From the NCBI GenBank assembly GCA_003223645.1, contig QHVT01000012.1, forward strand, positions 62,001 to 126,000: a DNA stretch of 64,000 bases, read 5' to 3'. The first letter of the stretch is position 1, and every line of letters starts with the position of its first letter. The notes beneath the pieces were generated by a model. It worked only from the letters and a program-made list of their open reading frames with translations. It ran no database searches and was not told the origin of the DNA. Below are positions 7,049 to 64,000 of this stretch, in pieces. This DNA is from Acidobacteriota bacterium (GTDB taxonomy: Bacteria; Acidobacteriota; Thermoanaerobaculia; Gp7-AA8). The translations under genes and the position numbers were made by a program.

Positions 7049-7323
7049 TCGTGCACCTCGAGCTGATCGTCGGCAAAGAGCTGCGCGACGAGCGCGGCGA
7101 GCGCGCCGGCCGCATCGCCGAGGTGCACGGCGACGACAAGGGACGCGACTTCGTCATCACGCACTACATCGTCGTCGTCGGCTGGCTCGGCTACCTGATG
7201 CACGAGCTCGGATTCCGCAAACGCTGCCGTCGCCGCCACGTGCCGTGGGACAAGATCGACCTGCGCGATCCGCTGCATCCGAAGTTGTTGTGCAGCGCGA
7301 GTGAGTTGAAAGAGCCGCGTTGA
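7045..7323 (+). CDS. Second PRC-barrel-like protein, Nramp operon
   Basis: A 92-residue protein beginning at the ATG that overlaps the preceding stop (7045-7048). LIVGKELRDERGERAGRI and HVPWDKIDLRDP repeat the layout of the upstream gene (beta hairpin, then a PW-K-I/V closing strand), so the two look like diverged duplicates. Its C-terminus runs to the edge of the 21-bp tandem array. A role with the Nramp transporter is inferred from the three-gene operon. Confidence 0.65.
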   Translation: MIVHLELIVGKELRDERGERAGRIAEVHGDDKGRDFVITHYIVVVGWLGYLMHELGFRKRCRRRHVPWDKIDLRDPLHPKLLCSASELKEPR

Positions 7324-7656
7324 CCGCGCTGCACTGCACCGCCGCTGCGCTGCAATGCGCCACGCCCGCGCTGCAATGCACCACTCCCGCGCTGCAATGC
7401 GCCACTCCCGCGCTGCAATGCGCCACTCCTGCGCTGCACTGCACCACTCCCGCGCTGCACTGCACCGCCGCCGCGCTGCACTGCACCGCTGTCGCACTGC
7501 ACTGCAACGCGGTCGCGCTGCATTGCACCGCCGCCGCGCTGCACTGCAACGCTGTCGCGCTGCATTGCGCCACCTCCACGCTGCATTGCACCGCCGCCGC
7601 GCTACGCTGCAACGTCATCGCGCTGCACTGCGCCACCTCCGCGCTGCACTGCCGCG
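7324..7656. repeat. 21-bp tandem array A, about 15.5 units
   Basis: Degenerate units of 21 bp with consensus GCGCTGCAMTGCACCRCCGCC. Each contains the quasi-palindrome TGCAMTGCA, giving one site every two helical turns. Because 21 is divisible by three, long reading frames run through on both strands (a Cys every seven residues); I treat these as by-products. The array ends six bases before a strong promoter. Array B at 51019-51480 has the same period. Confidence 0.9.
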
Positions 7657-9366: not shown

Positions 9367-9512
9367 CATCGCAAGAGCAGTTAGCGATGAAGGATGAAGG
9401 ATGAAGGATGAAGGATGAAGGATGAAGGATGATCGATGAGTATTCCAATGATCGCTCATCTTCATCGATCATCCTTCATCGATCATCCTTCATCATTAGC
9501 GCTCTGGCGATG
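9367..9512. repeat. Tandem-word hairpin element, word GATGAAG
   Basis: The ends CATCGCAAGAGC and GCTCTGGCGATG are inverted. Inside, the 7-bp word GATGAAG is repeated about seven times on the left arm and its complement, CTTCATC, recurs on the right. The copy at 22129-22250 has a matching left end (CATCGCGAGAGC). It lies between the convergent methyltransferase and helicase genes. Confidence 0.8.
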
Positions 9513-11644: not shown

Positions 11645-12316
11645 GCGCGGAGGGAAGCGTAGCCTCCGAGCCTCCTGGCCTCCAAGCGATCTGGTGGAGC
11701 GGCGGCCGCTTCGGCCGCCGACCTCTCGCGAGAATCCGGCGGCCGAGGGCGGCCGCCGCTCCACAGATTCGACGTTGAGCCCGGAGAGGTGTCACCGCAC
11801 GCGCTTCCGTCCGCGCCGCACCAGCCATCGCGCTCCGCGCGTGAGGGCAGGCCCGATGAGCGGATCTGGTGGAGCGGCGGCCGCTTCGGCCGCCGACCTC
11901 TCGCGAGAATCCGGCGGCCGAGGGCGGCCGCCGCTCCACAGATTCGTCGTTGAGCCCGGAGAGGTGTTAGCGCACCCGCTTTCTCTCGCGCCGCACGAGT
12001 CATCTTGCTCCGCGCGTGAGCGCGGGGCCGATGAGCGGATCTGGTGGAGCGGCGGCCGCTCTCGGCCGCCGACCTCTCGCGAGAATCCGGCGGCCGAGGG
12101 CGGCCGCCGCTCCACAGATTCGTCCTTGAGCCCGGGAGGTGTTAGCGCACCCGCTTCCGTCCGCGCCGCACGAGCCATCGCGCTCCGCGCGTGAGGGCGG
12201 GGCCGATGAGCGGATCTGGTGGAGCGGCGGCCGCTCTCGGCCGCCGACCTCTCGCGAGAATCCGGCGGCCGAGAGCGGCCGCCGCTCCACAGATCGTCGT
12301 TGAGGCCAGGAGGCTA
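11645..12316. repeat. Four ~175-bp tandem units, each holding a palindrome and a copy of a gene 3' end
   Basis: Units start near 11777, 11952, 12128 and 12302 (periods 175, 176, 174). Each contains the palindrome GGTGGAGCGGCGGCCGC...GCTCCAC (11693-11764, 11868-11939, 12043-12115, 12218-12290) plus about 80 bp equal to the last codons and stop of the neighbouring glycosyltransferase gene. No independent gene is seen in the 672 bp. Confidence 0.9.
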
Positions 12317-13432
12317 TCACCGCACGCGTTTCCGTCCGCGGCGCACGAGCCATCGTGCGCCGCGCGTCAGGGCGGGGCCGATGAGCGGCGCGTCGAGGAG
12401 GCGATGCGTTGCCTGCACGACGAGGTTCAGCTTCGCTTCGTCGCCGCCGCGCGGCATGCCGCGCAGGAATGCGGCGGCGGCGCGGCCTTCGGCTTCGAGG
12501 TCGCGCGTGAATCCTTGCGCGATGACGGTTTCGTAGAGCGCGACGAGTTGTGCGTGCAATGCATCCGCGGAGGCGGTGGCGCGGATCGTCGACGCGACGC
12601 GCGTCGCGTCATCCGGGTCGTACGCGCGGAGCTCGCGCTGCACGGACTCGACCGTCCACGGCTCGCTCAGCGAGCGCACGCCGAAGTTGATGCGGCGCAA
12701 TCTTGCGACGTCTTCGCTGCGGACCATTCCGCCGAGGCCGGCGACGTCGCAGAGAATGACAGCGGCGCCGCTGGCCATCGCTTCGAGCGCGCATTTCGCT
12801 TTCGCGAAGACGAGATCGTAGCCGCGCAGGATCGCCTCCGGCTCGTCGACCGCGGTTCCCGCCGACTCGCCGATGACGTCGAGCGCGATTCCGGCCTGTT
12901 GGCAGGCGTCGCGAATCACGCCGAGGTGCGTGGCGGCGTGGGCGGTGTTGCCGAAGACCAGCGCGCGGTGCGGCGTCGCCGGCAGCGGCGTCTCGCGCGC
13001 CGCGAAGCGCGTGAGATCGACCGCGTTGAGAAGCACGGTCGACGCGATTCCTTCTTCGTAGAGCAGGCGATCGGCGCAGGTGTCGTCGACGGCGACGTAG
13101 CGCAGGATGCGCGGAAATTTCGGCGGCTTCGCGAGCGCGCCGCGCCAGGCGTGGCAGACGAAGATCGCCGGCGCGTTTGGAAAATGCAGCAGCGCGGTCA
13201 TCGTCTCGACGGCGCTGTTGCCGTGAATGATGTCGGGCGGCGCGCCGATCGTGTCGAGATCGTCCGTCACGGGAACCGTTCGCTTGCGGAGTTGCATCGC
13301 CGTGTCGCCGAGGTTCGGGCCGTAGACGATGGGGGAGTGGCCGCGATCGAGGAGCCACGACGCGAGATCGCGGACGTAGGCCTGCGTGCCGGCGACGTGT
13401 CCGAGGGAACCGTTCGTGATCAGGACGCGCAT
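12317..13432 (-). CDS. Glycosyltransferase, GT4-like
   Basis: A 371-residue protein with the two-domain layout of GT-B enzymes. The N-terminal half starts MRVLITNGSLGHVAGTQ followed by YVRDLASWLLDRGH (nucleotide-sugar enzyme type). The C-terminal half has VFGNTAHAATH and a donor-site-like region around KCALEAMASGAAVILCD (the E of the usual EALA/EAMA signature). The sugar and acceptor are unknown. It overlaps the stop of the upstream PIG-L-like gene by 13 bases, so both are probably translated together. Its last about 20 codons were copied into the tandem array downstream. Confidence 0.75.
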   Translation of the reverse strand: MRVLITNGSLGHVAGTQAYVRDLASWLLDRGHSPIVYGPNLGDTAMQLRKRTVPVTDDLDTIGAPPDIIHGNSAVETMTALLHFPNAPAIFVCHAWRGALAKPPKFPRILRYVAVDDTCADRLLYEEGIASTVLLNAVDLTRFAARETPLPATPHRALVFGNTAHAATHLGVIRDACQQAGIALDVIGESAGTAVDEPEAILRGYDLVFAKAKCALEAMASGAAVILCDVAGLGGMVRSEDVARLRRINFGVRSLSEPWTVESVQRELRAYDPDDATRVASTIRATASADALHAQLVALYETVIAQGFTRDLEAEGRAAAAFLRGMPRGGDEAKLNLVVQATHRLLDAPLIGPALTRGARWLVRRGRKRVR

Positions 13433-22128: not shown

Positions 22129-22250
22129 CATCGCGAGAGCTGTTAAGGATGAACGATGAAGGATGAAGGATGAAGGATGAAGGATGAAGGATGAACGGTC
22201 CAGACGCCGTTCATCCTTCATCCTTCATCCTTCATCCTTCATCGTTGAAC
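22129..22250. repeat. Tandem-word hairpin element, word GATGAAG (second copy)
   Basis: CATCGCGAGAGC at the left end matches the copy at 9367. GATGAAG words on the left arm and CTTCATC words on the right are separated by CGGTCCAGACGCCG. It lies between two genes that converge. Confidence 0.8.
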
Positions 22251-22699: not shown

Positions 22700-22782
22700 T
22701 TACTTCAGGTAACGGGCCAGAAACGGTTGCTGCGCGCTCAGCGTGCCTGCGATGAGAAGAGCGAGAGCGAACGTGGGATTTT
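22700..22782 (-). pseudogene. Remnant of a secreted-protein gene (signal-peptide fragment)
   Basis: The minus strand reads TFALALLIAGTLSAQQPFLA and then YLK and a stop: a good signal peptide plus nine mature residues. No start codon remains between the upstream stop and this stretch, and the repeat block from 22784 begins where the start should be. Probably a decayed gene. Confidence 0.3.
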
Positions 22783-22783
22783 A

Positions 22784-23070
22784 GGCGCACAGGCTCATAG
22801 GCGCATAGGCTCATAGGCGCATAGGCTCACAGCCCTGAGATAGGTTGCGCGGTTCCTCCGCCCGACGCCGCGTAACCGCGCGACCGACATCTCAGCGCCT
22901 CTCCTCTGAGCCCATGAGCCTCTGAGCCCATGAGCCTGTGAGCCCATGAGCCTCTGAGCCTATGAGCCTGTACGCCCATGAGCCTGTGAGCCCATGAGCC
23001 TCTGAGCCCATGAGCCTCTGAGCCCATGAGCCTGTGAGGCCCATGAGCCTGTGAAGCCCATGAGCCCATG
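22784..23070. repeat. Tandem-word hairpin element, word GAGCCCAT/GGCTCATA
   Basis: Left part: repeats of CATAGGCTCATAGGCG. Right part: many GAGCCCATGAGCCTCT words, roughly the complement. The middle contains an inverted pair, GGTTGCGCGGTT and AACCGCGCGACC. It fills the whole 22.78-23.07 kb gap up to the pfk stop codon. Confidence 0.8.
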
Positions 23071-23072
23071 AG

Positions 23073-24233
23073 CTAGTGCAGGAACATCGGCATCCCCATC
23101 ACCTGCGCGACCTTCGGCCGGTACTCGCTCGCGTCATAGAAGCGCGTGACGTCGACGCGTTTCTTCGCGGTGCCGGTGACGCTCAACGGGACGGCGGTGT
23201 AGCGGCCGTCGGTGACGGCGACCATGCTTCCGGGTTGTCCACGGCGCACCATGTCCGCCGCCAACGCTCCGAAGTTTTTTGCGACGATGAGGTCGAGCGA
23301 GTCGGGCGCGCCGGAGCGCATCAGATATGCGAGGCGCTGGTAGATCACTTTGTCGCGGCCGCGCTTCTCCAGAAAATCGGCGAGCATGCCGCCGACGCCG
23401 CCGAGCTTGCGCTGTCCCGAGGCGTCGGGCTCACCTGACTCGATCATCACGCCCGTCGTCGTCCGCGCACCCTCGGAGATCGCGACGACCGCGTAGTTGC
23501 TCGGATTCTCCAGCTTGTCCTTGCACAACATCTGGTACAGCTCTTCCGCGTCGAACGGCACCTCGGCGATGATGGCGCGATCGCAGCCCGCGAGATATGC
23601 GGCGAGCAGACACGTCTCGCCGGAGTTGCGTCCGAACAGCTCGACGACGAGAAAGCGCTCGTGCGATCCCGCGCTCGTGCGGAGGTCGTTGATGAGCATG
23701 ACCGAGCGCGTGACCGCGGTCGAAAAGCCGAGGCAGTAGTCGGTGCCGTAGACGTCGTTGTCCATCGTCTTCGGGATGGCGATCATCGGCACACGCTCTT
23801 CGTGCAGCCGGCGCGCAAAGGTCAGCGTGCCGTCGCCGCCGAGGGCGACGAGATAGTCGATGTCGAGGAAGTCGATGACGCGCAGCGCGGCGTGCGTAAG
23901 GTCATAGCGTCCGCGCTCATCGGGCTCGCCCTTTTCCGTTTCGAGATGCGGCGGGATGTGCTCGGCCTTGCTGATCTCGGGATTGATGCGCGACGTATGC
24001 AGGATCGTGCCGCCGGTGCGATCGATCGCGCGCGTGTTCGCGCGCGTCAGCGGCATGATCCAGCTCGAGTTGTCGGCGCTCTCGTCGGGAATGATGTTCG
24101 TCAGCGACGCCCAGCCGCGGCGTAGACCGAGAATCTCACAGTCTTCGTCGAGCATGCGCCAGACGAACGACTTGATCGCCGCGTTCAGGCCCGGCACGTC
24201 GCCACCGCCGGTGAGGATTCCGATCCGTTTCAT
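23073..24233 (-). CDS. pfkA: ATP-dependent 6-phosphofructokinase
   Basis: Glycolytic enzyme making fructose 1,6-bisphosphate. A 386-residue PfkA-family protein: ILTGGGDVPGLNAAI at the start, nucleotide motif GGDGT at 132-136, catalytic PKTMDND at 154-160 and GRNSGE further on. Gly after GGD (not the Asp of GGDD) favours ATP over pyrophosphate as donor. It is longer than E. coli PfkA (320) because of an insert around 80-115, as in the group-III enzymes. It lies 13 bases downstream of the tdh-like gene and is probably cotranscribed with it. Confidence 0.9.
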   Translation of the reverse strand: MKRIGILTGGGDVPGLNAAIKSFVWRMLDEDCEILGLRRGWASLTNIIPDESADNSSWIMPLTRANTRAIDRTGGTILHTSRINPEISKAEHIPPHLETEKGEPDERGRYDLTHAALRVIDFLDIDYLVALGGDGTLTFARRLHEERVPMIAIPKTMDNDVYGTDYCLGFSTAVTRSVMLINDLRTSAGSHERFLVVELFGRNSGETCLLAAYLAGCDRAIIAEVPFDAEELYQMLCKDKLENPSNYAVVAISEGARTTTGVMIESGEPDASGQRKLGGVGGMLADFLEKRGRDKVIYQRLAYLMRSGAPDSLDLIVAKNFGALAADMVRRGQPGSMVAVTDGRYTAVPLSVTGTAKKRVDVTRFYDASEYRPKVAQVMGMPMFLH

Positions 24234-25384: not shown

Positions 25385-25500
25385 GCTGGATGGCAGATGA
25401 CAGGATGGCAGATGGCGGATGGCAGATGGCGGCCGGGGGAAGCGGGTGTTCAGGGCTTGCGGCTTCTGCTATCCGCCATCTGCCATCTGCCATCTGCATC
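25385..25500. repeat. Tandem-word hairpin element, word GGATGGCA
   Basis: GGATGGCAGATGGC words on the left and GCCATCTGCCATCT on the right. The same words form the element at 63208-63298. From 25501 to 25600 I see no gene. Confidence 0.75.
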
Positions 25501-26720: not shown

Positions 26721-27155
26721 ATGAAGTACATCGAGTCACGAACGCGTGTGCGCTACAAAGAAACCGATCAGATGGGGATCGCCCATCATTCGAATTACAT
26801 CGTCTGGTTCGAGATCGGGCGGACGGATCTCTGCCGCGCGACCGGCATTCCGTACGCGGAGATCGAGCGGCGCGGCTACATCCTCGTCGTGACGGAGATC
26901 GGCTGCCGCTATCGCACGCCGTTTCGCTACGACGACGAGGTGCTGATCCGCACGTCGGTCGGCGAGATGGGCAGCCGGCTGATGAAGTTCACATACGAGC
27001 TGTTCGACGCCGAGGGCCGCGAGAAGCGCGCGAACGGCTTCAGCGCGCACGTCTGGCTCGATCTGCAGTCGCGCAAACCGGTACGCGCCGACGCGGAGGT
27101 CGTGCGCGCGTTCGAAGCATTCCTTGCCGAGACTCAGAGGCGCCCAGGCGCATAG
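26721..27155 (+). CDS. Acyl-CoA thioesterase, YbgC/FadM type (hotdog fold)
   Basis: A 144-residue 4HBT-family thioesterase that cleaves acyl-CoA. The active-site helix start RYKETDQMGIAHHSNYIVWF has the catalytic Asp of the YbgC motif. The core ends FSAHVWLDLQSRKPVR. The last residues, AETQRRPGA, are encoded by the tandem-word repeat that follows, and the TAG stop lies inside a GCATAGGCTC word, so the natural C-terminus has been replaced or extended by the repeat. Confidence 0.85.
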   Translation: MKYIESRTRVRYKETDQMGIAHHSNYIVWFEIGRTDLCRATGIPYAEIERRGYILVVTEIGCRYRTPFRYDDEVLIRTSVGEMGSRLMKFTYELFDAEGREKRANGFSAHVWLDLQSRKPVRADAEVVRAFEAFLAETQRRPGA

Positions 27156-27263
27156 GCTCAGAGGCTCAGAGGGTCAGAGGCTCAGAGGGATCCGCTATGA
27201 GCCCATGAGCCTATGCGCCCATGAGCCCATGAGCCTCTGCGCCCATGAGCCTCTGAGCCCCTG
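27131..27263. repeat. Tandem-word hairpin element, words GGCTCAGA/GAGCCCAT
   Basis: CTCAGAGG words on the left, CCATGAGCCTATGCG words on the right; close to the block at 22784-23070. It provides the stop codon of the upstream thioesterase. Confidence 0.75.
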
Positions 27264-27718: not shown

Positions 27719-27815
27719 CCGTAATTGTGAATTGTGAATTGTGGATTGTGAGCCGAGAAGGATGAGGACGCCGCTCGCGACCCCTTCACAATTCTCAATT
27801 CACCATTCTCAATCT
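27719..27815. repeat. Tandem-word hairpin element, word AATTGTG
   Basis: AATTGTGAATTGTG words on the left; TTCACAATTCTCAATTCACC words on the right. AT-rich compared with the surroundings. It lies directly downstream of the tRNA-Leu 3' end on the minus strand. Confidence 0.75.
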
Positions 27816-41451: not shown

Positions 41452-41618
41452 GAAATTGAGGATTGAGAATTGAGGATTGAGGAAATGTCGAATCGAATGC
41501 TCTGCCTCAATCCTCAATCCTCAATCCTCAATCCGGCCGACAGGCCGCGATGTGAGGAAATGTCGAATCGAATGCTCTTCCTCAATCCTCAATCCTCAAT
41601 CCTCAATCCGGCCGGCAG
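41452..41618. repeat. Tandem-word hairpin element, word ATTGAGG, with 75-bp duplication
   Basis: ATTGAGG words on the left arm and CCTCAAT words on the right. A 75-bp block starting GAGGAAATGTCGAATCGAAT (41479) is repeated at 41554. It extends to seven bases before the folK start codon. Confidence 0.85.
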
Positions 41619-41624
41619 GCCGCG

Positions 41625-42035
41625 ATGACCTCCGTCCTCATCGCCCTCGGCACGAACCTCGGCGATCGCCGCTACCACATCGCTCGCGCGATTCACGCGC
41701 TGCGCAACTTCGTGCGCGTCGTGCGCGTCAGCACGATTCGCGAAACCGCGCCGGTCGACGCTCCGCCAGGCTCGCCTCCGTTTCTCAACGCGGTCGTTGC
41801 CGGATACACGAGGCTCTCCCCGGAGTCGATGCTCGCGCAGTTGCTGAACATCGAAAAGCGCCTCGGCCGCGTGCGGCGCGGCCTGCCGAATGAGCCGCGG
41901 GTGATCGATCTCGATTTGATCTTCCACGGCGCGCATCGCCGGCACACACGCACGCTGACGCTTCCGCATCCGCGCTATCGCGAGCGGGAGTTCGTGATGA
42001 CGCCGATGCGCGAGCTGCGGCTCGACTGGCGTTAA
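41625..42035 (+). CDS. folK: 2-amino-4-hydroxy-6-hydroxymethyldihydropteridine pyrophosphokinase
   Basis: Folate-pathway enzyme that transfers pyrophosphate from ATP to the pterin. A 136-residue HPPK: LIALGTNLGDR, PPFLNAVVAGYT, NIEKRLGRVR, the metal-site PRVIDLDLIFHG and LPHPRYREREFVMTP. It is a little shorter than E. coli FolK (159) but has all the active-site segments. No ribosome site is evident because a repeat runs up to the start. Confidence 0.92.
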   Translation: MTSVLIALGTNLGDRRYHIARAIHALRNFVRVVRVSTIRETAPVDAPPGSPPFLNAVVAGYTRLSPESMLAQLLNIEKRLGRVRRGLPNEPRVIDLDLIFHGAHRRHTRTLTLPHPRYREREFVMTPMRELRLDWR

Positions 42036-49947: not shown

Positions 49948-50058
49948 GGCACAGGAACGCAGAACGCAAAACGCAGAAGTAAGAAGCACACCCGAAGACG
50001 CCGTACGCGCGCACACGCCGGCGGGCTTCTCAATTCTGCGTTCTGCGTTCCCGTATCG
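49948..50058. repeat. Tandem-word hairpin element, word CGCAGAA
   Basis: GAACGCAGAACGCAAAACGC on the left and TTCTGCGTTCTGCGTTC on the right. The rest of 49798-50177 shows no gene; a terminator-like hairpin follows at 50068. Confidence 0.7.
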
Positions 50059-51018: not shown

Positions 51019-51480
51019 GGCGAACGAAGGCACCACGCTTGCATACGAGGCAAATTCGCTGACCAACGAAGCAAACTCACTGCGAAGTGAAGCAAACTCA
51101 CTGAAGATCTAAGCGAGCTCGCTGAGATCTGTCAGCAAACTCGTTGACCAACGAAGCAAGCTCGCTTCGATCGGAAGCAAACTCGTTGAAGATCCAAGCA
51201 AGCTCGCTCAGATCTGTCAGCGAGCTCGTTGACGAACGAAGCAAGCTCGCTTCGACCGGAAGCAAACTCACTTCAGGACGAAGCAGATTTGCTTCGCTTG
51301 TCAGAGAGTTTGTTTGGCGTGGAAGCGGGCTCGCTTCGCTTGCCAACGAGTTTGCGCCGGCGGGAAGCGGGCGCGCTTCGCCAGCCAGCCTTCGTGAATC
51401 CATGGTCTCAATGGTCGCCAGGCAACGACGTTGCGTCGCGAGGCAATGGTCATTGCACGCGAGGCAAGGTTGAATGCACT
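51019..51480. repeat. 21-bp tandem array B, about 20 units
   Basis: Units of 21 (rarely 22) bp with consensus CGAAGCAAGCTCGCT; several contain the perfect inverted repeat CGAAGC-N6-GCTTCG. The last three units (51411-51477) are a different subtype, GCGAGGCAATGGTCATTGC, also palindromic. Translated frames read heptads such as EASSLRS but no gene is convincing. Same period as array A at 7324-7656. Confidence 0.88.
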
Positions 51481-63207: not shown

Positions 63208-63298
63208 AATGGATGGCGGATGGCAGATGGCGGATGGCAGAAGAGTTATTTCCACGCTATCCGCCATCTGCCATCCGCCATCTACCATCTGCCATCTA
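63208..63298. repeat. Tandem-word hairpin element, word GGATGGCA
   Basis: GGATGGCGGATGGCAGATGG words on the left; CCATCTGCCATCCGCC words on the right. Matches 25385-25500. The lipA stop codon lies inside the final CCATCTA word. Confidence 0.8.
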
Positions 63299-64000
63299 TT
63301 TCGCCACTGCCCGGTGAGCCATGTACGAGCTGCGCACGAGCGGAGCGCTTTCGACGTGGTGAAAGCCGAGTGCGCGCGCGGCATCGCCTAACGCGGTGAA
63401 TTCGTCGGGTGTGTAGTAGCGGCGGACGGGATGGTGGCGCTCGGTCGGCGCGAGGTACTGCCCCATCGTGAAGATATCGACGCCGGCTTCGCGCAGGTCG
63501 CGCGCGACGTCGAGCACTTCGTTTTCCGTTTCGCCGAGGCCGAGCATGAGGCTCGACTTTGTCAGCATGCCGTCATTGCGCTCTTCGTGGGCCCAGCGCA
63601 GCAATTCGATGGAGCGGTCGTATTTCGCGACGGGACGCACGGCCGAATAGAGACGCGGAACCGTTTCGACGTTGTGCGCGAGCACTTCGGGACGTGATGC
63701 GATGACGACGCGCAACGCGTCACGATTTCCTTCGAGGTCGGAGATCAATACTTCGACAGCCGCGCCGCTGCGATCGCGAACCGCGTGCACCGTCTCGGCC
63801 ACGTGCGCGGCGCCGCCATCCGGCATGTCGTCGCGATTGACCATCGTGATGACGGCGTGACGCACTCCCATTTTCTCGACGGCTTCCGCGACGCGGCGTG
63901 GTTCGTCCGCGTCAGCGACGAGCGGCGTACCGCGTCCGACCGCGCAGAACGTGCAGCGGCGCGTGCAGATCTCGCCGAGGACCATGAACGTGGCGGTGCC
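63296..64000 (-). CDS. lipA: Lipoyl synthase (5' truncated by the window edge)
   Basis: Radical-SAM enzyme inserting two sulfurs into octanoyl groups. The frame is open to base 64000 with GTATFMVLGE before the cluster motif CTRRCTFCAV (CxxxCxxC). SDLEGNRDALRVVI, LAHNVETVPRL, KSSLMLGLGETENEV, FTMGQYLAPTERH and SAPLVRSSYMA are characteristic. The N-terminal auxiliary-cluster cysteines lie outside the window. The C-terminal residue before the stop borders a repeat. Confidence 0.95.
   Translation of the reverse strand, partial: GTATFMVLGEICTRRCTFCAVGRGTPLVADADEPRRVAEAVEKMGVRHAVITMVNRDDMPDGGAAHVAETVHAVRDRSGAAVEVLISDLEGNRDALRVVIASRPEVLAHNVETVPRLYSAVRPVAKYDRSIELLRWAHEERNDGMLTKSSLMLGLGETENEVLDVARDLREAGVDIFTMGQYLAPTERHHPVRRYYTPDEFTALGDAARALGFHHVESAPLVRSSYMAHRAVAK

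Follow-up and report, generated by a model that had tools for sequence, protein, structure and literature searches.

The window analysed here is a 64,000-nucleotide stretch of the genome of a soil-dwelling Acidobacteriota bacterium (contig QHVT01000012.1), and the element under study, first noted at 22784-23070, lies in an intergenic gap directly behind a phosphofructokinase gene whose nearest named relatives belong to Acidobacteria MAGs of gp7 and Thermoanaerobaculia. The features of the locus are as follows.

22782-22829, no strand assigned: left arm, six 8-mers TAGGCGCA/TAGGCTCA
22843-22861 with 22867-22885, no strand assigned: nested inner stem in the loop, GGTTGCGC type
22903-23073, no strand assigned: right arm, about 20 8-mers, TGAGCCCA/TGAGCCTC
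23073-24233, minus strand: phosphofructokinase gene (PF00365), its stop codon abutting the element

The arms of this element (22782-23073) are strongly unequal, at about 6 against about 20 words. The left arm amounts to 3.0 units of 16 nt, TAGGCGCATAGGCTCA, and in the right arm, which ends at the phosphofructokinase stop codon, the best unit found by TRF was a 16-mer, CCTCTGAGCCCATGAG, with a score of 254 versus 169 for the 8-mer. Minus-strand RNA of 22775-23075 has a predicted folding energy of -199.5 kcal/mol (z = -14.7 against shuffles). The exact word class of the nested stem, CGCGGTTG, is that of 11 elements in our sample of the genome, and nesting of this kind, with a hairpin of another word inside the loop of a tandem-word hairpin and the symmetry kept, was seen at L060 19041-19216, L074 13444-13594 and L025 2086-2226 as well as at 22843-22885 of the window. 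The phosphofructokinase gaps of relatives (L181, L183 and L185) contain other long palindromes, for example TCATCCTGAGCGAAGCGAAGGATC in genome G003, a related one in G015 and one of GTAGGGCCGGCTCTCCAGCCGGCCC type in G010.

The first-pass annotation had proposed that this and eight further gaps of the window each hold a short tandem word facing its complement. A 7-8 nt word in this arrangement was recovered in all nine gaps, each time by one or both of two detectors, and the other eight elements are given below.

9386-9497 (arms 9386-9439 and 9462-9497), no strand assigned: GATGAAG tandem-word hairpin
22145-22246 (arms 22145-22195 and 22210-22246), no strand assigned: GATGAAG tandem-word hairpin; fold z -12.95
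25404-25497 (arms 25404-25430 and 25465-25497), no strand assigned: GATGGCR tandem-word hairpin; detectors and fold
27154-27235 (arms 27154-27188 and 27197-27235), no strand assigned: hairpin of the 8-mer AGGCTCAG / GGGCTCAT; strict detector only
27723-27808 (arms 27723-27750 and 27785-27808), no strand assigned: AATTGTG hairpin adjoining tRNA-Leu; sensitive detector only
41455-41609 (arms 41455-41483 and 41505-41534), no strand assigned: ATTGAGG hairpin, right part duplicated at 41579-41609
49955-50050 (arms 49955-49986 and 50034-50050), no strand assigned: GAACGCA hairpin; detectors and fold
63211-63297 (arms 63211-63241 and 63255-63297), no strand assigned: GATGGCR hairpin; detectors and fold

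The predicted RNA folds of these eight gave z values from -4.1 to -13.0. In Markov-shuffled windows the strict detector found no hairpin in 20 of 20 runs and the sensitive detector found one hairpin over 20 runs, against 9 and 8 pairs, respectively, in the real window. The duplication in the 41.5 kb element concerns its right half and forms a 75-nt repeat at 41478-41627; the gene at 63296-64000 takes its stop codon from the first word of the hairpin at 63211-63297. The annotation was mistaken in two details: the word listed as 'GGATGGCA' is really the 7-mer GATGGC[A/G], and the words are not all different among the nine sites, with GATGAAG, GATGGCR and a GGCTCA-type 8-mer each present at two. 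Rfam, searched over the window at the gathering score, returned two tRNA matches and nothing else. Longer tandem repeats at 7323-7652 (21/63 nt) and 51045-51381 (21/42 nt) are unrelated to the hairpins.

A search of 1.22 Mb of the same genome (the window and 60 further stretches) for self-complementary tandem repeats, as the first-pass annotation had advised, yielded 135 such hairpins with the sensitive detector, compared with 24 same-direction pairs, 9 complement-only pairs and 4 reversed pairs as controls in the same DNA. Seven of the 60 stretches had been placed near GATGAAG matches; these contribute to the statistics on the 135 elements and are excluded from the position statistics. An in-house script supplied the gene calls. 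In the 1.08 Mb that had not been picked near words, the strict detector found 76 hairpins, or 70 per Mb (controls 12, 7 and 2). The median element is 89 nt long, with arms of 4.4 and 4.6 words and a loop of 18 nt, and the word period is 7 in 87 elements, 8 in 30, 6 nt in nine, 9 nt in six and 10 nt in three. Strict densities in other genomes of the family, taken from small samples of which some were placed at word matches, were 18.6 per Mb in G001, 33 in G011, 56 in G005, 71 in G014, 125 in G009 and 150 in G012. Beyond the family, the strict detector gave no call in 60 kb from a different family within the order and a single call in 277 kb from further members of the class. In 75 loci outside the family (1.17 Mb, mostly from other phyla) there were 11 hairpins against controls of 9, 4 and 3, figures that are no proof, and the architecture may occur elsewhere, for example in Chloroflexi.

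Within the genome a small set of words turns up again at many unlinked places, with 569 exact matches to GATGGCR, 173 to GCAGAAG, 146 to GTGCTGR and 60 to GAACGCA. Read towards the apex, the word had a single polarity in each of the 17 exact word classes that number three or more elements in this genome; exceptions to the rule are a TAGGAC-type element (L033 17385) and three of the 15 readable AATGTT arm pairs of G012, which are reversed. Most arrays are paired with a complementary one (paired/lone: GAANGCA 31/4, GATGGCR 25/10, GGTGCTG 14/5, GATGAAG 6/5, GGTTGCGC 5/2), and in 26 of 29 GAANGCA elements the variable base N was equal on both arms (mean 8.9 and maximum 18 in 10,000 shuffles). Loops inside one word family are mostly unalike. 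The 5′ arm is not universally G-rich or purine-rich; of 21 word clusters, 14 had G>C, 5 had C>G and 2 were ties (p = 0.064), which is a trend only.

The words themselves differ between species. Among the 18 genomes of the family that we compared, all of them incomplete assemblies, GATGGCR has 569 matches here, 3 in G009, 1 in G013 and none in either the same-genus G001 or the remaining 14. AATGTTS, conversely, is absent from this genome and from eight others, has one match each in G005 and G011, and is found 206 times in G012, 201 in G017, 69 in G014, 56 in G003, 19 each in G015 and G009, and 15 in G008; G005, with its single match, belongs to the same genus as G014 and G017. GCAGAAG was present in 8 of 60 genomes, the present one included, and all 8 are within the family. 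Identical words at all sites in related genomes, which would have pointed to ordinary dispersed copies, were looked for and not found. The view that only the architecture is shared thus holds between species, where the words differ, but not within the genome, where a few words recur at unlinked sites.

Orthologous gaps were compared in operons that we take, from protein sequences and motifs, to be pyrR/pyrB/pyrC, sdhC/sdhA/sdhB and that of murD; the three gene sets were picked because the present genome (G000) has an element there, and words in the pyr, sdh and murD-ftsW slots that had escaped the detector (in G001, in G010 and at some murD-ftsW gaps) were identified by eye. The pyrB-pyrC gap holds a two-armed hairpin in 12 of 18 genomes, built from nine different words.

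GAAGGCA: G000
GAACGCA: G001
GTGCTGA: G002
GGGGAGT: G005
GAATGCA: G008
AATGTT-type: G009, G012, G015 and G017
AAATGGA: G010
GGGAGTC: G014
GGTCGG-type: G016

One arm is present in G003 and none in G004, G006, G007, G011 and G013; a one-armed array was also found at sdhA-sdhB of G007. Two-armed hairpins occupy pyrR-pyrB in 7 of 18 genomes, sdhC-sdhA in G000 and G001 only of 15, and murD-ftsW (by eye) in G000, G007, G008, G011, G014 and G016 of 16. In the congeneric pair G000 and G001, GAAGGCA and GAACGCA, respectively, make up both arms at both sdhC-sdhA and pyrB-pyrC, and the loops have no homology visible by eye. Within the single genus of G005, G014 and G017 the pyrR-pyrB words are alike and the pyrB-pyrC words differ, and the number of words in the pyrR-pyrB hairpin varies, by eye, among same-genus relatives. 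The units are 8-mers in 6 of the 7 occupied pyrR-pyrB gaps and 7-mers in all 12 at pyrB-pyrC, and each of these slots seems to have its own unit length; the occupied murD-ftsW gaps mix 7- and 8-mers.

An automated comparison of 82 gaps of the present genome found a hairpin in the relative in 19 of 97 comparisons at gaps that are occupied here, versus 4 of 117 at gaps without an element (Fisher p = 0.0002), although these comparisons are not independent and five gaps, picked for the genome's own element, dominate the 97. Per gap, a hairpin was present in one or more relatives for 5 of 18 gaps with an element here and for 3 of 64 others. In the 19 joint cases the words are one mismatch apart once, two mismatches apart once, and otherwise at least three apart or of different length. 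In 78 comparisons the detector finds the hairpin here only. The relative's gap then measures 1-50 nt in 38 cases and zero or less, the genes touching or overlapping, in 23 cases, a total of 61 with at most 50 nt. Nine strict elements were called in coding sequence, of which the one in murD was checked against relatives. It is an in-frame GATGGCA hairpin, lacking in all 14 aligned relatives, which have a shorter stretch there (G007, with no frame containing both motifs, G015, with a two-piece match, and G013, with no close match, were left out), and the peptide that it encodes matches about 20 further places in the genome. Flanking direct repeats of at least 4 nt, as a target-site duplication would leave, were found at 1 of 135 elements against 0.8 expected, with element boundaries set by maximal pairing, which may hide palindromic duplications.

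The elements lie preferentially behind genes. Both neighbours were called for 99 intergenic elements, and 51 of these are within 10 nt of a stop codon, compared with 33.7 (sd 2.9) under random placement in the same gaps. Barring the 25 nt ahead of gene starts raises the expectation to 43.0 (sd 2.2, maximum 50 of 1000), and about half of the excess is therefore accounted for by the sparing of the next gene's start; in the 29 codirectional gaps with ample room, the element lies closer to the stop 22 times (p = 0.008). Some elements provide the stop codon of the neighbouring gene. A hairpin directly behind a stop codon would suit a rho-independent terminator that is repetitive by chance, but a four-T run lies 3′ of the element on either strand in only 6 of 135 cases versus 3.4 (sd 1.7) at random sites, strict elements occupy 8 of 124 convergent and 47 of 518 codirectional gaps, which is no enrichment in the convergent class, and hairpins occur inside operons, between pyrR, pyrB and pyrC, between sdhC, sdhA and sdhB, and behind murD. 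Because they are operon-internal and have no T-tract, the hairpins are not ordinary terminators, and we rejected this reading as extremely improbable. Selection for an intercistronic RNA hairpin acting as an mRNA stabilizer, attenuator or translational insulator, the sequence of which drifts, would explain the stop-codon proximity, the extreme predicted stability of the fold and the presence at pyrB-pyrC, in 12 of 18 genomes, of hairpins whose words differ. We nevertheless consider it improbable, given that 5 of 18 genomes have no hairpin at pyrB-pyrC, 11 of 18 none at pyrR-pyrB and 13 of 15 none at sdhC-sdhA, and that elements also lie in coding sequence (murD) and in divergent gaps (21 of the 99).

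The features described above are best explained, in our view with a probability of about 0.6, by a library of dispersed palindromes similar to REP and Rickettsia palindromic elements (RPEs), copied whole, amplified in a lineage-specific manner and then altered by slippage and loss. Dispersal is favoured because the same words stand at unlinked sites with mostly fixed polarity and because a whole hairpin stands in murD where the aligned relatives have none. Several families of short palindromes (median 89 nt), with stems that usually hold 3-8 tandem 7-, 8- or 9-mers, would each be copied as complete hairpins into new sites by a putative trans-acting activity. Insertions would survive mostly in the space from a stop codon to the ribosome-binding site of the next gene, within operons included, and occasionally in frame inside a gene. 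After insertion the arms would gain or lose words, presumably by replication slippage, and copies would erode to one-armed arrays or vanish. With different families amplified in different lineages, a permissive orthologous gap would be refilled repeatedly with different words, and any effect on the mRNA of a very stable hairpin behind a cistron would probably be a by-product rather than the reason for its existence. Some observations sit less well with whole-hairpin dispersal: no target-site duplication was detected and no mobilizing gene was identified among the Y1_Tnp matches (see below), polarity is not absolute, and loops mostly differ within a family, where recent copy-and-paste should have left them similar unless loop sequence changes quickly.

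The occupancy of pyrB-pyrC in 11 of 17 relatives, above that of the other gaps examined, means that slots may instead be preserved and their words changed in situ, old and fixed hairpin slots being overwritten through gene conversion or hairpin-templated copying (concerted evolution). The nine words in that one gap, the GAAGGCA/GAACGCA pair on both arms at two orthologous gaps, the agreement of N between arms, the excess of relatives' hairpins at gaps with an element here (the five chosen gaps weighing heavily in this figure) and the near-constancy of unit length in the two pyr slots are all in keeping with such replacement; the clean empty sites, the absence of the murD hairpin from every aligned relative, the dissimilar loops of the congeneric pair and the mixed unit lengths at murD-ftsW are not. 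We regard it as unlikely, with some credence retained because orthologous slots are reused so often, and slightly less likely still is its genome-wide form, in which homogenization overwrites both arms with the word spreading in the lineage while architecture, place and perhaps unit length, but not sequence, are inherited. The first-pass annotation had argued for a process, repeat growth across a hairpin seeded by local sequence at each site, rather than for one mobile element. It rightly sensed that this is not a single element, that the architecture outlasts the words and that sites are reused and their words replaced. Independent growth at each site, however, is disfavoured, and we think it slightly less probable than a selected RNA hairpin, as the same words occur at many unlinked sites of one genome with mostly fixed polarity. 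Growth on both arms at once finds some weak agreement in the arm copy numbers (rho 0.32 over 135 elements, 79 of them within one word versus 60.8, sd 4.6, in shuffles), the one-armed arrays of G003 and G007 could represent intermediates, and word number varies at pyrR-pyrB; yet rho is -0.03 in the 50 codirectional strict elements, and the A/G variants of GATGGCR are mirrored at equal apex distance in 22 of 56 cases (0.39), below the 0.48 (sd 0.07) of shuffles.

For the preferred reading, dispersal of whole hairpins, a mobilizer was sought among Y1_Tnp genes. The tags of REP sequences are not enriched near the outer ends of the elements: GTAG is there in 14 of 135 and CGTC in 16 of 135, and random sites give 10.0 (sd 3.1) and 54.3 (sd 5.7), respectively. 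The sole Y1_Tnp (RAYT-type) gene of the genome is flanked by the GC-rich palindrome GTGGAGCGGC, which is another hairpin family. Across the family there are 101 Y1_Tnp matches, and 30 of these loci (88.7 kb) contain one tandem-word hairpin; the same-genus G001 has no Y1_Tnp match and still carries tandem-word hairpins. These results do not support Y1/RAYT as the mobilizer of the class. The GTGGAGCGGC palindrome, present in the window as four 175-nt repeats (11688-12388) and on either side of the Y1_Tnp gene at L209 1314-1384 and 1878-2195, is likely to form a true REP-RAYT-like pair with that gene.

Cyanobacterial STRR sequences are direct arrays of heptamers. Heptamer arrays are also described for Beggiatoaceae (TAACTGA; 169 direct sets and one indirect; PMC4679880) and Geobacter metallireducens (four GGACCGG repeats at 49 sites; PMC2700814). 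With all of these the present elements share lineage-specific 7-nt tandem words at many sites per genome, but most arrays here face a complementary array, as with the 31 paired and 4 lone arrays of GAANGCA. REP sequences (GTAG and CGTC superfamilies) and REPINs, with their RAYT transposases, are described in PMC3733652 as species-specific, high-copy palindromes with stems of 5-13 bp. Many species-specific palindromes, mainly downstream of genes and some intragenic, in families that differ by strain, are common to both; the tandem 7-9-mer stems found here are several times longer. Unlike REP and REPINs, too, our elements have neither GTAG or CGTC enrichment nor a cognate RAYT flanked by tandem-word hairpins. 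RPEs, as described in PMC10969869, are about 150 bp long and occur with a conserved peptide in frame in unrelated genes and between genes; in-frame insertion into a conserved gene (murD) alongside intergenic sites is the shared feature, the arms here being tandem words, unlike those described there, and one in-frame case having been compared with relatives. The P6b stem of the Nostoc trnL intron (PMC4476775) always consists of 7-nt repeats of two word classes, gains repeats on one or both sides and has seen one class replace the other repeatedly at the same site, which recalls the heptanucleotide stems and swapped words seen here; P6b, however, is a single site in one intron, whereas here many gaps and many words are involved. 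MITEs differ in that no target-site duplication was detected here. The dispersal is thus like that of REP, RPE and MITE elements and the stem like that of Nostoc, yet the class fails the REP tests (tag and cognate transposase) and the MITE test (duplication). In the portions of the full-text PMC literature that were searchable, tandem-word stems dispersed in Acidobacteriota were not recognized, which is no proof of their absence in print, and neither was the combination of such stems with dispersal throughout a genome and with words that differ at orthologous gaps.

The families of hairpins resemble, on a bacterial scale, the library model of eukaryotic satellite DNA. REP-like repeats are usually known by a conserved sequence, and here the class is recognizable by architecture alone, with word counts specific to the lineage and words at a given operon junction that vary among related species. 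This suggests DNA that is old, changes fast and probably spreads itself, not a fixed genetic switch, and a comparison of strains would distinguish insertion from in-situ rewriting directly. Such hairpins should not be taken for terminators, nor the peptides they encode for protein domains. About half of the 20 GAACGCA matches in G011 lie within approximately 200 nt of a contig start, and that assembly seems to break at GAACGCA repeats.
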